From assembly GCF_001690275.1 (NCBI RefSeq), contig NZ_LZGW01000017.1, positions 124,001-188,000 on the forward strand: DNA of 64,000 nucleotides. The letters are read 5' to 3'. The stretch's first letter is position 1. Each line of letters begins with the position of its first letter. Under the pieces are notes generated by a model. It was not told where the DNA came from. It saw only the letters and a program-made list of their open reading frames with translations, and did no database searches. Position numbers and translations under genes: made by a program. Source of the DNA: Gilliamella sp. WF3-4 (GTDB lineage: Bacteria > Pseudomonadota > Gammaproteobacteria > Enterobacterales > Orbaceae). This document shows, in pieces, positions 1 to 5,470 of the stretch.

Positions 1-1134
1 GTGCGCAGTACCTAAAAATAAGCCATATTCACCCTTTTGTAACTGATCACGTAAAGCACGATAAGCAATTGCGCCATGTGGTTCGGATAAATAGCCTTTT
101 TGATCGAGTTCACAAACGGTTTGTTTAGCAACTTCATCAGAAACCGCCGCATGAGCCAGTGATTTAAGATCCCAACCTTCACGCTGATAAATTTCTTCAA
201 TTCTAGGCCAGTTATTGGGTTGACTAACATCCATTGCATTAGATAGCGTTGCAATTGTTGCATGTGGTTCCCATTTACCAGTTTCTAAATATCGAGGTAC
301 TGTATCATTCGCATTAGTTGCTGCAATAAAACGCTTAATTGGTAAGCCCATGGTTTTTGCAAGTAGCCCAGCGGTTAAATCACCAAAGTTGCCACTTGGA
401 ACAGAAATAACTAATTGCTCACGTTGTTTGGGGGGTAATTGAGCGTAAGCTTCAAAATAGTAACATATTTGAGCGAGTAATCGGCTGATATTGATCGAAT
501 TAGCAGAGTTCAAACCAATTTTAGTTTTTAATTCTTCATCATCAAATGCCTTTTTCACTAATGCTTGGCAGGCATCAAAATCACTTTTGATGGCAATGGT
601 ATGAATATTATCACCAAGTGTACAAAAGAGTTTTTCTTGTAATGGGCTGATTTTTCCTTCAGGGTATAAAATAACGGCCCGAATATTCGGCAAATGATAA
701 AATGCATGGGCGACAGCTGCGCCTGTATCGCCAGATGTCGCAGTTAAAATAGTGATTTTTTTATCTGCTGCTACTTGAACTAATGCTTGTGCCATAAATC
801 GCCCACCAAAATCTTTAAATGCTAGTGTGGGACCATGATAAAGCTCTAATGAGCCAATATCTGCTTCAACGGATGTTATGGGGGCAGGAAATTGAAAAGC
901 ATTTTTAACTAGTCTGTACATATCATCACTGCTAATTTCATCACCAATAAAAGCAGATAATATTTTGGCGCTACGAGTAACAAAATCAAGATTTAATAAT
1001 GATTCAATTTCGTTTATGGAAAATTTAGGGAGTTCTTGGGGAAAGAATAGGCCTTGGCCTTTTCCTAATCCTTGTTGTACCGCTTGAGAAAAACTAACTT
1101 GTTCTGAATGATCTTTTAAGTTATATAATTTCAT
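1..1134 (-). CDS. thrC: Threonine synthase, C-terminus cut off by window edge
   Basis: PLP enzyme that converts O-phosphohomoserine to threonine, the last step of the pathway. The frame reads from an ATG at 1134 without a stop to base 1, giving 378 codons. The E. coli enzyme is about 428 residues, so roughly 50 C-terminal residues lie outside the window. Seen: the N-terminus MKLYNLKDHSEQVSFSQAV, the PLP-lysine segment TLAFKDFGGRFMAQAL, the conserved stretch LNSANSINISRLLAQICYYF, and GEYGLFLGTAH at the window edge. It follows thrB after a 114-base gap containing a hairpin, whereas in E. coli thrB and thrC nearly abut. The frame is open throughout. Identity is very secure. Confidence 0.97.
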   Translation of the reverse strand, partial: MKLYNLKDHSEQVSFSQAVQQGLGKGQGLFFPQELPKFSINEIESLLNLDFVTRSAKILSAFIGDEISSDDMYRLVKNAFQFPAPITSVEADIGSLELYHGPTLAFKDFGGRFMAQALVQVAADKKITILTATSGDTGAAVAHAFYHLPNIRAVILYPEGKISPLQEKLFCTLGDNIHTIAIKSDFDACQALVKKAFDDEELKTKIGLNSANSINISRLLAQICYYFEAYAQLPPKQREQLVISVPSGNFGDLTAGLLAKTMGLPIKRFIAATNANDTVPRYLETGKWEPHATIATLSNAMDVSQPNNWPRIEEIYQREGWDLKSLAHAAVSDEVAKQTVCELDQKGYLSEPHGAIAYRALRDQLQKGEYGLFLGTAH

Positions 1135-1248: not shown

Positions 1249-2187
1249 TTAAATAATTCTTGCGCCTAGGGGATCTATTTTACAAATATGGGTAAAGCCT
1301 TCATCATTTTGTAAATAACAATGTTTAAGCAGTAATTCAATTTGTTGTGCCGTTTCAAGTTGATCTGCAATGACAAACATTGTTGGACCTGAGCCAGAAA
1401 TTCCCGATGCTAGAGCTCCGAGCTGTTTGACCCGTTTTTGTATTTCATCAAAGCTAGGTAATAATTGTTTGCGGTAAGGTTCAGCAATATTATCAACAAG
1501 CATTGCCGAAGCCAATTTAGGTTGTTTGGTATAACAAGCATGCAAAAAACCACCCACATAGCGACCGTGTGCTACGCAATCCGCTTTTTGATATTGAGCC
1601 GGTAATATTGCTCGTGCTTCAGCGGTTGAAACCTTAATACCGGGGTATGCCATCACCCAATACCAATCTTCAAAATGAGGTATTGATTCGCTAATTATGC
1701 CTATTTCATCAAGGATAAGTTGCATTCCACCTAAATAGCAGGGTGCCACATTATCATAATGCACGCTACCCGAAATGCGTCCTTCAAGCTTCCCCATCAT
1801 TGTAAGCATTTCAAACTCATTAAATGGTTTATCAAAAAACTCATTTAAGGCAACAAATGCGCCAACCACAGAGCAAGCACTTGATCCTAATCCCGAACCT
1901 ATTGGCATATTTTTTTCAAGAGTCATACTGACGGGCAATGTTTTACCCATTGCTTGACAAAAATACTGCCAGCATTGATAAACAATATTGTTTTTGGGAT
2001 CATTGGGGAGGTTTTTCACAAATGAGCCTTTGCTAGTTAACAAAAATTTGCTAGCAGGTTCAACAGTGATACAATCGCCAAGCATCACACCACTAATAGG
2101 GCTAATTGCTGCACCTAATATATCAAAGCCAACACTAATATTAGCCATTGATGCAGGCGCATAAACAGTTAAAGATTTATGATTCAT
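1249..2187 (-). CDS. thrB: Homoserine kinase
   Basis: GHMP-family kinase that phosphorylates homoserine to O-phosphohomoserine for ThrC. It is 312 residues, the usual length. The GHMP ATP-binding loop [10 protein letters not shown] is at residues 95-104, the N-terminal substrate strand [15 protein letters not shown] is at 8-22, and the C-terminal [14 protein letters not shown] motif of the family is present. The ATG directly follows the thrA stop codon with no intervening base, which suggests translational coupling. It is the second gene of the thrABC operon and is controlled by the leader attenuator at 4804-4924. Confidence 0.97.
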
Positions 2188-4644
2188 TTAGCCTCCTATT
2201 TTGCCTGATGTGGTACGTAAAATATCAGCAAAAACACCCGCAGCGGTAACATCATTACCAGCGCCATAGCCTCGTAATACGAGTGGTATAGGTTGGTAAT
2301 AACGCGTATAGAAAGCTAAGGCATTTTCACCATTTTTGACTTTATAAAGAGGATCTTCGCTATCAACGGCTTCAATCTTAACATGGCATTGCTTGTTTTC
2401 TATACTGCCAACATAGCGTAGAACTTTGCCTTTTTTTGCGGCTTGTTCTGATTTTTCTTTAAACACGGCATCCAATTGTGGCAATTGTTTCATAAACTCA
2501 TCAAGGCTACCTTGTGTATACTCAACAGGTAGAACAGATTCGACATTGATTTGATCAAGCTCTAATTGTAATCCTGCTTCTCGAGCTAAAATTAATAGTT
2601 TTCTCGCCACGTCAGTGCCTGATAAATCATCACGAGGATCAGGTTCAGTAAAACCTTTCTCTTTAGCCAATTTAGTTGCTTCAGACAATAACATGCCTTC
2701 ATCAAGTTTACCAAAGATGAAAGAAAGTGAACCTGACAATATACCTGAAAATTTAATAAGCTCATCCCCTGCATTGAGTAGATTTTGTAAGTTTTCAATA
2801 ACAGGTAATCCAGCGCCAACATTAGTATCGTACTGGAATTTTCGTTTACTTTTTGCCGCTTCTTGGCGTAAACGCAAATAATAAGCCATTGAACTGGTAT
2901 TGGCTTTCTTATTTGGCGTGACGACATGAAAGCCATTAGCTAAAAAGTCCGCATATTTATCAGATACTTCACTACTTGATGTACAATCGACTAGAATGGG
3001 GTTGAGTAATCGATTATTTTTAGCAAACTCAATAATTCCGTCTAACGTGTAACTATGTTCACTTTGTCTGATTTGATCTCGCCAATTGGTCAGATCAATA
3101 CCATCACGGTTAAGGATATTATGTTTAGAATTAAATAGCCCACAGACACGAAGATCGATCTGTTTGTTTTTTAGCCATTTTTGCTGACGATTAATTTGAT
3201 CAATAAGCGCACCACCAACGCCACCAACACCAATAACAAATACATCAAGCATTTTGTCCGTACCAAATAACATTTGGTGAGCAACTCTTACGCCCATTAT
3301 GGCAACATCATTATCAACCACAACAGAAATTGAGCGCTCAGATGAACCTTGTGCAATAGCGACAATATTAATATTCGCTCTGGCTAGGGCTGTAAAAAAG
3401 TTAGCTGATAAGCCTCGTAATGTACGCATACCATCACCGACAACTGAGATAATTGCTTGTTTTTCAATGACTTCAATAGGTTCAAGTAAACCATCTTTTA
3501 GCTCCAGGAAAAATTCATCATTTAATGCCTCTTCAGCTCGGCTGAGCTCAGTTTGTGGTACACAAAAACTAATACTATATTCTGATGAAGATTGGGTAAT
3601 AAGCACCACTGAAATGCCGGCATAAGACATGGCAGAAAAAACGCGAGCCGACATACCCACCATGCCCTTTAAGCCAGGGCCAGAGACGTTAATCATTGCC
3701 ATATTATTTAAATTAGTAATGCCTTTTACTGGTGTTGTTGAATCAACAACATTGGCACCGATTAATGTACCTGGTGCATCAGGATTATTTGTGTTTTTAA
3801 TTAAGCAAGGAATTTGAAATTGAGCAATAGGTAAAATCGTTCTTGGGTGAAGAACTTTGGCGCCAAAATAAGAAAGCTCCATTGCCTCTTGATAAGATAG
3901 AGTCTTAAGGAGTTTTGCATCAGGCACAGTACGGGGATCACAAGTATAAACACCATCGACATCAGTCCATATTTCACAACTATTAGCACGCAGACACGCA
4001 GCTAGTACCGAGGCAGAGTAATCCGAACCATTACGCCCGAGAGCAACGAGCTCACCTTTATCATTACCCGCAGTAAAACCAGGCATTAAAATTATATGAT
4101 TTTGGGGAATATGCATTTCACTAAGTCGGCGTGAAGACTCTGCAATATCGACGGTTGATTCTAAATAGTTGCCTTCAGCAATTAGCATTGCTACTGGGTT
4201 TATTACAGTAACTAAATGCCCCTTAGCCTTAAGCAGTTCTTCCATAATGGCAATAGAGAGTTTTTCGCCACGGCAGATAATTGATGCATTAATGCTATCA
4301 GGGCATTGGCCTAATAAAGCGATCCCCTTAAGTAGTTGCTTAACATTGTTTAATTCATCAAGTGCAAAGCGCTTCATCTGTTCATAAGCAAAATTAGGTT
4401 GTGCTTTTGCAATTCCTTCTAGTAAATTAGCAAAGATTTTTTCAGCATCACAGATATTATTTTGTATATCCTGCCCAGCAACCGTTTTTTCTACCATTGC
4501 AACTAAATGATTAGTAATTTTAGCTGGTGCGGATAAAACCGTTGCGTTTTGCTCTTGTTTAGCATTATTTTCGATAATCTCTGCAACGCGTAAAAAACGT
4601 TCTGCGTTAGCGACAGATGTTCCTCCAAATTTTAAAACTTTCAT
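2188..4644 (-). CDS. thrA: Bifunctional aspartokinase I / homoserine dehydrogenase I
   Basis: It catalyses the first and third steps from aspartate to threonine: aspartate phosphorylation and reduction of aspartate semialdehyde to homoserine. It has 818 residues (E. coli 820). Aspartokinase domain: [13 protein letters not shown] at residues 5-17 and the substrate region [15 protein letters not shown]. Two ACT regulatory segments follow (one around [18 protein letters not shown], the second around [18 protein letters not shown]). The homoserine dehydrogenase domain starts near residue 466 with the NAD(P) loop [11 protein letters not shown]. The paired ACT domains imply feedback control by threonine as in E. 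coli. It is first in the operon, and transcription is probably controlled by the upstream attenuator. Confidence 0.97.
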
Positions 4645-4803
4645 ATCACACCTTTACTTATTGTTCTAATTTATGCCTGTTACCATTCAAAATACCTTTT
4701 ACCTAAAAACATCAGTGGTTTAAAAGTAGTAATAAGAAATCAAAATATTAAAATTTTATCTTTCTTTACTCTTATGGTTTTTGAACCTGTTTTTATAAAA
4801 ACT

Positions 4804-4860
4804 AAAAACCCGCCTATTTTGGCGGGTTTTTTATATTTTCAAGGAAAAATTAACCCGCCC
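4804..4860 (-). promoter_or_regulatory. thr operon attenuator (antiterminator/terminator)
   Basis: Three segments, read in the direction of transcription. A is GGGCGGGTT (4860-4852), B is AACCCGCC (4828-4821), and C is GGCGGGTTTTT (4814-4804), followed by a T-rich tail. B:C forms a terminator with loop AAAATA. A:B forms an alternative 8-base-pair stem that excludes it. Segment A spans the last codons and stop of the leader peptide at 4850-4924, so a ribosome finishing the peptide would mask A and let the terminator form, while a ribosome stalled on the Ile or Thr codons would leave A free. This is the classical amino-acid attenuation logic. The pairing is seen in the sequence; the regulation is inferred. 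Confidence 0.85.
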
Positions 4861-4924
4861 TATATTGAATAATAGTGCTTAAGGTGCTAATAATGTTTGA
4901 AATCATCATTATCATTTTCATCAT
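4850..4924 (-). CDS. thrL: thr operon leader peptide
   Basis: A 24-codon reading frame upstream of thrA. It contains six Ile codons, two Thr, three Ser and five Met, and includes the stretch SNIISTLSTII. It ends in AGG-GCG-GGT-TAA inside the attenuator. E. coli ThrL is 21 residues, rich in Thr and Ile, and also ends in an Ala-Gly pair. An AGGA element sits just before the first ATG (4924). The second ATG (4921) has the better spacing and may be the true start. The Met-rich N-terminus is unusual and could add methionine sensing, which is speculative. The frame is too short for routine gene finders. Confidence 0.85.
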   Translation of the reverse strand: MMKMIMMISNIISTLSTIIQYRAG

Positions 4925-4966
4925 TTTCCTAATTAAATTTATTTTTTAAACGCTAAAAACAAAACA

Positions 4967-4992
4967 GCCTGACATTTTCATGTCAGGCTGTA
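4967..4992 (-). terminator. Rho-independent terminator after the 4996-5325 gene
   Basis: Perfect inverted repeat CAGCCTGACA / TGTCAGGCTG with a six-base loop. On the minus strand it is followed by TTTTGTTTTT. It lies immediately after the stop codon of the small unknown gene and just upstream of the thr leader, so it insulates the thr operon. Confidence 0.85.
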
Positions 4993-4995
4993 ATT

Positions 4996-5325
4996 TTAAA
5001 AAAACTTTTTGCTATTTTCGTACTCATTAACAACTTTATTCAATGCTTGATAGATACTTTCAGTATCTTGCTTTTTTAACGCTTCATCAAGAATATTAAG
5101 ATACGATAACATTAGCTTTTGATTGTCTTCTGCAAACTTTGGTGAAATTTCCTGATCTTCATATAGCATGACATAAGTGCGTGCAAATCCAAAAATCAAA
5201 AAATAGACCGCTGCATTTTTTGTATCTTCTTGAATTAATGTTTGCATAGCGTTACGCAGTTTTACATAACTGTCTGTGCCTGGTAAACTTGCCGCAAATG
5301 TTTTAGTTACTTCAGTAAATACCAT
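4996..5325 (-). CDS. Small protein of unknown function
   Basis: I do not recognise this family. The best start is the ATG at 5325 (MVFTEVTKTF), giving 109 residues, because a GAGG element lies nine bases upstream. The frame could be extended to a TTG at 5340, but that extension includes the ribosome binding site. The protein looks mostly alpha-helical and soluble, with no signal peptide or membrane segment. A charged stretch lies near the middle (YEDQEISPKFAEDNQKL) and Lys/Glu-rich helices at the end. It is a single gene with its own strong terminator, between ydfG and the thr operon, which share no obvious function with it. It is probably a real gene, conserved in close relatives. Confidence 0.7.
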   Translation of the reverse strand: MVFTEVTKTFAASLPGTDSYVKLRNAMQTLIQEDTKNAAVYFLIFGFARTYVMLYEDQEISPKFAEDNQKLMLSYLNILDEALKKQDTESIYQALNKVVNEYENSKKFF

Positions 5326-5470
5326 TACGATTAACCTCAATCAAAACCACAAGAAAAAAGAATAGCAACCCTAAAGCAGAAGTGCAAGCCTATTTTGTTC
5401 TTCAAATCTATTTTTTATTATTAAAGGGAGCGAGCATTTATAATTTACCTCCACAGTCAATACGTTTTAA

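Follow-up and report, generated by a model that had tools for sequence, protein, structure and literature searches.

In Escherichia coli K-12 (NC_000913.3), thrA is preceded by thrL, a short leader with many Thr and Ile codons that is followed by a spacer and a B:C terminator, and the Thr/Ile specificity of this attenuator is established (Lynn et al. 1987). The element that we describe here lies in a 64,000-nucleotide stretch of DNA from Gilliamella sp. WF3-4, which at its full length we call the window, and it has the same layout; in both cases the leader ends in Ala-Gly-stop, and these codons form segment A. The two peptides differ in composition: internal Met is absent from ThrL of E. coli, where Thr outnumbers Ile, whereas in the window leader Ile outnumbers Thr and Met is present as well. 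For the Pasteurellales, Vitreschak et al. reportedly predicted in 2004 a Thr/Ile/Met attenuator of thrA, and the window resembles that case in having a single ThrA together with Met codons in the thr leader.

The set of enzymes that the operon works alongside also differs, in that E. coli is described as having a second homoserine dehydrogenase, MetL (PMC4239095), whereas none was found in the Orbaceae tested. In Alteromonadales, MetJ control of thrABC has been predicted (Leyn et al. 2014, PMC4239095), which likewise couples methionine status to thrABC. That control acts through a protein and its operator, however, and in 32 Orbaceae regions we found no tandem MetJ box (≤3 mismatches) before thrA, though MetJ itself is encoded by 30 of 30 genomes of the genus. 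A similar thr leader is described for Vibrio natriegens, where both ThrA and MetL are present (PMC12925634), and Shewanella is predicted to have thr attenuators (PMC3223726); for the Orbaceae, we saw none among the papers listed in our searches of the openly licensed literature. Methionine control of the thr operon is not a new idea, and the Orbaceae would extend the Pasteurellales prediction. A possible novelty is the rule that links Met codons in the leader to a single homoserine dehydrogenase beyond the Pasteurellales.

The leader and its alternative hairpins

The genes thrA and thrB are directly consecutive on the minus strand, and the stop codon of the leader lies 205 bases upstream of thrA (Table 1). 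The earlier note, which gave no strand for the attenuator, had read a leader of 24 codons with six Ile, two Thr, and five Met; these counts are confirmed on the minus strand, with the start included among the Met codons. Two ATGs could serve as that start. The Shine-Dalgarno-like AGGA is spaced 2 nt from the first and 5 nt from the second (4921..4919), and the leaders of relatives align with the second. Because of this spacing and this alignment, we regard the second ATG as the likelier start, so that the leader of the window probably has 23 codons and three internal Met.

Table 1. Features of the thr leader region and operon, in window coordinates
Feature	Position	Strand	Basis or remark
Leader peptide ORF MMKMIMMISNIISTLSTIIQYRAG	4924..4850	minus	ORF reading and alignment with relatives
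Shine-Dalgarno-like AGGA	4930..4927	minus	sequence, aligned in relatives
Segment A GGGCGGGTT	4860..4852	minus	overlaps final leader codons and stop
Segment B AACCCGCC	4828..4821	minus	partner of A or of C
Segment C GGCGGGTT	4814..4807	minus	terminator 3' arm, then T run
Intrinsic terminator, B:C and T run	4804..4831	minus	terminator scan and folding
Candidate anti-Shine-Dalgarno segment ATTTTTCCT, after leader stop	4842..4850	minus	complementary to leader Shine-Dalgarno region 4920-4933; weakly supported
thrA, bifunctional aspartate kinase/homoserine dehydrogenase I	2188..4644	minus	NF006959, 1307 bits, cut-off 726
thrB, homoserine kinase	1249..2187	minus	TIGR00191, 346 bits, cut-off 168
Probable thrC, continues past window edge	1..1134	minus	reading frame and position; name inferred
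114-aa gene 5' of thr leader	4996..5340	minus	same direction as thr operon

The leader was said to end inside a segment A able to pair with B, with B alternatively pairing with C to make a terminator, and both folding and the terminator scan bear this out. Segment A covers the last codons and the stop. A terminator consensus scan finds B:C as a hairpin of 11 pairs on the minus strand, and terminator-like sites number 3 in 4500..5400 against 0.3 expected from shuffles. The fold of 4804-4830 reaches -16.3 kcal/mol and that of 4804-4852 reaches -17.4 kcal/mol, with 0 of 200 shuffles equally stable in either case; when C is left out, A:B folds at -14.2 kcal/mol (3 of 200 shuffles equally stable), and when A, B, and C are all present, B:C prevails. 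The Rfam model RF00506 (Thr_leader) scores 28.6 bits here (E 0.0089), below its gathering cut-off of 55, which is why the element is not filed under that family. Pairing of A with upstream codons, which could keep A covered when nothing translates, was also considered and rejected: across 29 distinct Orbaceae regions it averaged 0.56, no more than the 0.55 of shuffles would lead one to expect. The basic A/B/C switch needs no upstream pairing that holds A.

The 3' edge of a ribosome lies about 12 nt beyond its A-site codon. With the edge assumed there, stalls at Ile11, Ile12, Thr14, and Thr17 would leave A open, in agreement with the earlier reading. The accompanying suggestion that a ribosome stalled at the late Ile codons would partly cover A applies to Ile19, where it would cover the first bases of A, but not to Ile18, which would just leave A free. 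The stall geometry of the leader is thus plausible.

The region 5' of the leader holds a 114-aa gene whose product matches no family in Pfam or NCBIfam at E 0.001. A strong hairpin with a T run at 4964-4991 (minus strand) is the apparent terminator of this gene; it ends ∼33 nt 5' of the Shine-Dalgarno site of the leader and is also found, with changes, in the Gilliamella upstream regions read, two of which cut it short. At ≤3 mismatches, its 5' part occurs a single time in the genome. No clear thr promoter was seen between this hairpin and the leader, and a search of window positions 4645 to 4990 with ≤2 mismatches allowed gave no MetJ box.

A segment after the leader stop might add a further layer by pairing with the Shine-Dalgarno site and shutting off leader translation. 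Pairing of the post-stop ATTTTTCC with the leader Shine-Dalgarno is present in the minimum-energy fold of window positions 4804-4945, and in relatives, L018 for example, the helix can be as long as 12 bp. The pairing is stronger than with shuffled spacers (0.05 level) in 19 of 34 regions; in the window itself it is no stronger, 0.705 of shuffles being as strong. Own partners exceed permuted partners over 27 distinct Orbaceae pairs (p 0.029), and the same test gives p 0.24 within Gilliamella alone and p 0.10, 0.85, and 0.90 in families f9, f22, and f26, respectively.

Conservation in the Orbaceae and other relatives

The start of thrA was recognized in 124 of 130 loci, which represent 102 distinct regions. 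By our leader-finding rule, 92 of these 102 carry both a leader and a terminator, and a looser reading makes leaders visible in several of the remaining 10. Among the 36 distinct Orbaceae regions, 35 have a homologous leader and terminator under the same rule; in the 36th (L033), the leader was read by eye and has a divergent end. Four families (f3, f12, f14, and f20; e.g., L040, L047, and L048) show no credible thr leader by the rule used, and their attenuator may have been lost, replaced, or become too divergent.

The alignment across related genomes that the earlier note had called for shows the leader frame and the stems to be kept across Orbaceae and other Enterobacterales. The earlier note had proposed to test there for conserved Ile, Thr, and Met codons and for covarying stems. 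Among 24 distinct Gilliamella leaders, with positions counted back from the end of the peptide, every one has Ile at -7 and Thr at both -8 and -11, and 23 of 24 have Ile at -13 and at -14, but no Met column is conserved and the covariation amounts to one triplet. In an alignment of A, B, and C from 49 regions, of 70 distinct ones, standard pairs make up 97.1% of the 343 cells of A:B and likewise 97.1% of the 343 cells of B:C; after sliding, the maxima are 51.6% and 58.3%, respectively. Changes on both sides of a pair are confined to one triplet, U-A-U to C-G-C, and number 21 and 17 cells; this change largely separates lineages and so may reflect few events. In 89 of 98 genomes, segment A fits the B of the same genome more closely than it fits the B segments of other families on average. 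Taken with the position upstream of thrA, the conserved frame, the Ile/Thr core, and the A:B:C arrangement support the reading of the element, made from sequence, as a ThrL-type attenuator of the thr operon in Gilliamella-type Orbaceae.

Methionine codons and the number of homoserine dehydrogenases

The earlier note had also raised the idea, from the Met codons near the N-terminus, that methionine supply is sensed. This idea gains comparative support from the single enzyme, an ilv control, other families, and MetJ boxes in one of these families, but not from any conserved Met column in Gilliamella, and it does not reach significance in the most stringent phylogenetic tests. The homoserine dehydrogenase domain (PF00742) occurs once in 7 of 7 Orbaceae tested, the genome of the window included, and both biosynthetic threonine deaminase (ilvA) and homoserine succinyltransferase (metA) occur in 30 of 30 genomes belonging to the genus. 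With a sole homoserine dehydrogenase and both of these enzymes present, one ThrA should supply threonine, isoleucine, and methionine. An internal Met is found in 30 of 30 leaders of the genus that can be anchored on a Shine-Dalgarno site (L022 could not be anchored), and in 27 of 31 genomes when the most downstream start is used, which leaves 4 of 31 without any.

The best-surviving alternative is an ordinary Thr/Ile attenuator whose Met codons are neutral ATN relatives of Ile in a loosely constrained N-terminal part, and we consider it a tentative possibility that falls short of probable. Consistent with it, Met positions vary while the Ile and Thr columns are conserved; the commonest Met position in Gilliamella, -19, is reached in 11 of 21, which are partly start codons under the rule used. 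Leaders of a second operon in the same genus speak against it. The 24 distinct Gilliamella thr leaders hold 37 internal Met against 125 Ile, whereas 15 distinct ilvG leader peptides, likewise Ile-rich, hold 1 Met, at the very end, against 86 Ile (Fisher p 5e-7, with rows that are not independent). Such a difference is not easily put down to drift among ATN codons. Of 20 regions upstream of a probable ilvG in the genus, 19 gave an Ile-rich leader of this kind. In the genome of the window (L273), the probable ilvG is preceded by the leader peptide MKFSLKLVLINIIIVSVVIIPTRGRFLN and then by a GC-rich hairpin with a T run, which is likely a second attenuator of that genome.

Other families bear on the same question. 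Family f9 was judged to be Pasteurellaceae-type by counts of the Pasteurellaceae uptake word, which reach 1270 in G043 against 47 in the reversed control, with no enrichment in G200 (47 vs 31) and G209 (29 vs 39). Its leaders carry an internal Met in 29 of 30 single-enzyme and in 4 of 4 two-enzyme cases, and the Met of the two-enzyme genomes is what neutral codons would allow. In f9, the Met codons stand within the control run and at its end, whereas in Gilliamella they stand mostly in its first half.

Family f7, which we guess to be perhaps Alteromonadales, has single-enzyme genomes, with leaders like MKTIISTTGMMTTTLNRAVVG, side by side with two-enzyme genomes, with leaders like MKIKTTTFTTIIITTNPSG. 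We call a Met embedded when Ile or Thr lies within two codons on both sides, a rule chosen after the leaders had been inspected and thus partly post hoc, and by this rule 27 of 30 single-enzyme but only 1 of 19 two-enzyme f7 leaders have one, a contrast that neutral codons would not predict. The f7 leaders were found in 45 of 60 regions, and the two-enzyme side is under-sampled because the 15 misses comprise 12 two-enzyme and 3 single-enzyme regions. Embedded Met is found in 11 of 14 Orbaceae and in f9 in 24 of 28 single-enzyme and 4 of 4 two-enzyme leaders. Over all families, the tally is 64 of 74 single-enzyme against 12 of 64 two-enzyme genomes, an association conditional on having a leader, since f3, f12, f14, and f20 gave no credible leader and their genomes, with one hit each at 1e-60, would count as single-enzyme. 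Tandem MetJ boxes (≤3 of 16 mismatches, where shuffles average 6.5) precede thrA in 25 of 32 single-enzyme against 4 of 28 two-enzyme f7 regions (L334-L393), so that from these operator-like sites the f7 thr operon appears to be under methionine control by a second, unrelated route, through MetJ.

Whether this association outlasts shared descent depends on how strictly descent is modeled, and we used a quick ThrA tree as a stand-in for species relations. On the tree of 138 rows, which offers 8 independent contrasts on well supported branches and 9 on all, independent pairs gave on average 3.0 for and 0.2 against (median sign-test p 0.25). A PGLS of the embedded count over the same rows gave p 1.7e-14 at the fitted lambda of 0 and p 0.36 at lambda 1, and p 0.049 at lambda 1 once f9 was set aside. 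For f7 alone, the embedded count gave p 2e-8 at the fitted lambda of 0 and 0.076 at lambda 1, and embedded presence gave p 0.059 at a fitted lambda of 1. With the simple internal-Met count on 97 rows, pairs ran the same way in 0.9 and the other way in 0.1 of 5, and PGLS gave p 2.6e-6 at the fitted lambda of 0.15 and p 0.50 at lambda 1. Over all rows, the nonsignificant results at lambda 1 and in independent pairs are what neutral Met codons would lead one to expect, whereas the single-enzyme association in several families is not.

These comparisons draw on leaders from 100 of 122 upstream regions, reduced to 98 when G140 and G073 were dropped as false. Starts were assigned by Shine-Dalgarno score in most rows and, in the added f7 rows, as the first ATG ≤26 codons from the end. 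Homoserine dehydrogenase domains were counted in 80 of 103 genomes; the other f9 genomes were called single from one hit at 1e-60, and the Gilliamella tree rows that lack a domain count were called single from having no second full-length hit among the matches listed. One genome, G286, is two-enzyme by virtue of a separate 349-aa homoserine dehydrogenase, and another, G126 (fragmented, with one enzyme found although its family otherwise has two), enters the leader counts and is left out of the trees. As read from these genomes, the evidence that Met codons are tied to a single homoserine dehydrogenase is good but not conclusive.

The cluster of ATGs at the N-terminus could instead be a redundancy of start codons that guards leader translation against the loss of one. 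The window has two adjacent ATGs, and L023 and L029 have lost the usual one and must start at a further one, as such a redundancy would have it. Internal Met also occurs far from the Shine-Dalgarno site, however: 8 of 24 distinct Gilliamella peptides have one at -6, and L003 is among the leaders with one at -17. The Met codons of the Pasteurellaceae-type and f7 leaders, moreover, lie inside the control run near the terminator, and all of these positions make start redundancy an unlikely account. That B:C merely terminates transcription from upstream, beside a leader ORF that arose by chance, is highly improbable: the upstream gene (5340..4996) does run in the same direction, but it already has its own terminator-like hairpin (4991..4964), and the leader frame, its core, and the stop inside A are kept in the Orbaceae regions read.

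Proposed mechanism and its meaning for the Orbaceae

The explanation that we favor, with moderate confidence, is a thr attenuator that works by stalling at Thr and Ile codons and whose Met codons probably sense methionine as well. A ribosome would translate the 23-24 codon leader behind RNA polymerase. When threonyl- and isoleucyl-tRNA are plentiful, it would arrive at the stop inside A and cover A, upon which B:C would pair and the terminator would halt transcription before thrA. If the ribosome instead stalled at the conserved Ile-Ile, at either Thr, or at Ile, A would be free, A:B would form, and with no terminator the operon would be transcribed; we infer this stalling and read-through on Thr or Ile shortage by analogy. 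A shortage of methionine would stall the ribosome too, at Met codons before and within the Ile run. We consider a methionine input probable, if less certain than Thr/Ile stalling, because no homoserine dehydrogenase other than ThrA was found and MetA is present in the genus.

We also lean, though only narrowly, toward a wider reading, in which methionine is a third control amino acid wherever ThrA is the sole homoserine dehydrogenase, a state that Orbaceae, Pasteurellaceae, and part of f7 would have reached or kept independently through Met codons among the Thr and Ile codons, with f7 adding MetJ operators. Our results add the Orbaceae, bee-gut symbionts among them, to the bacteria with a thr attenuator; in the window, the Rfam model misses this form of it. 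They suggest a testable rule, namely that the amino acids encoded in a leader follow the branches that the regulated enzyme must supply. Plasmid tools are available for the Orbaceae (PMC10209150). If methionine is indeed sensed, leader codons would predict whether ThrA is the sole enzyme, and vice versa; if methionine is a third control amino acid, the leader codons would indicate which aspartate-pathway branches the operon has to supply.
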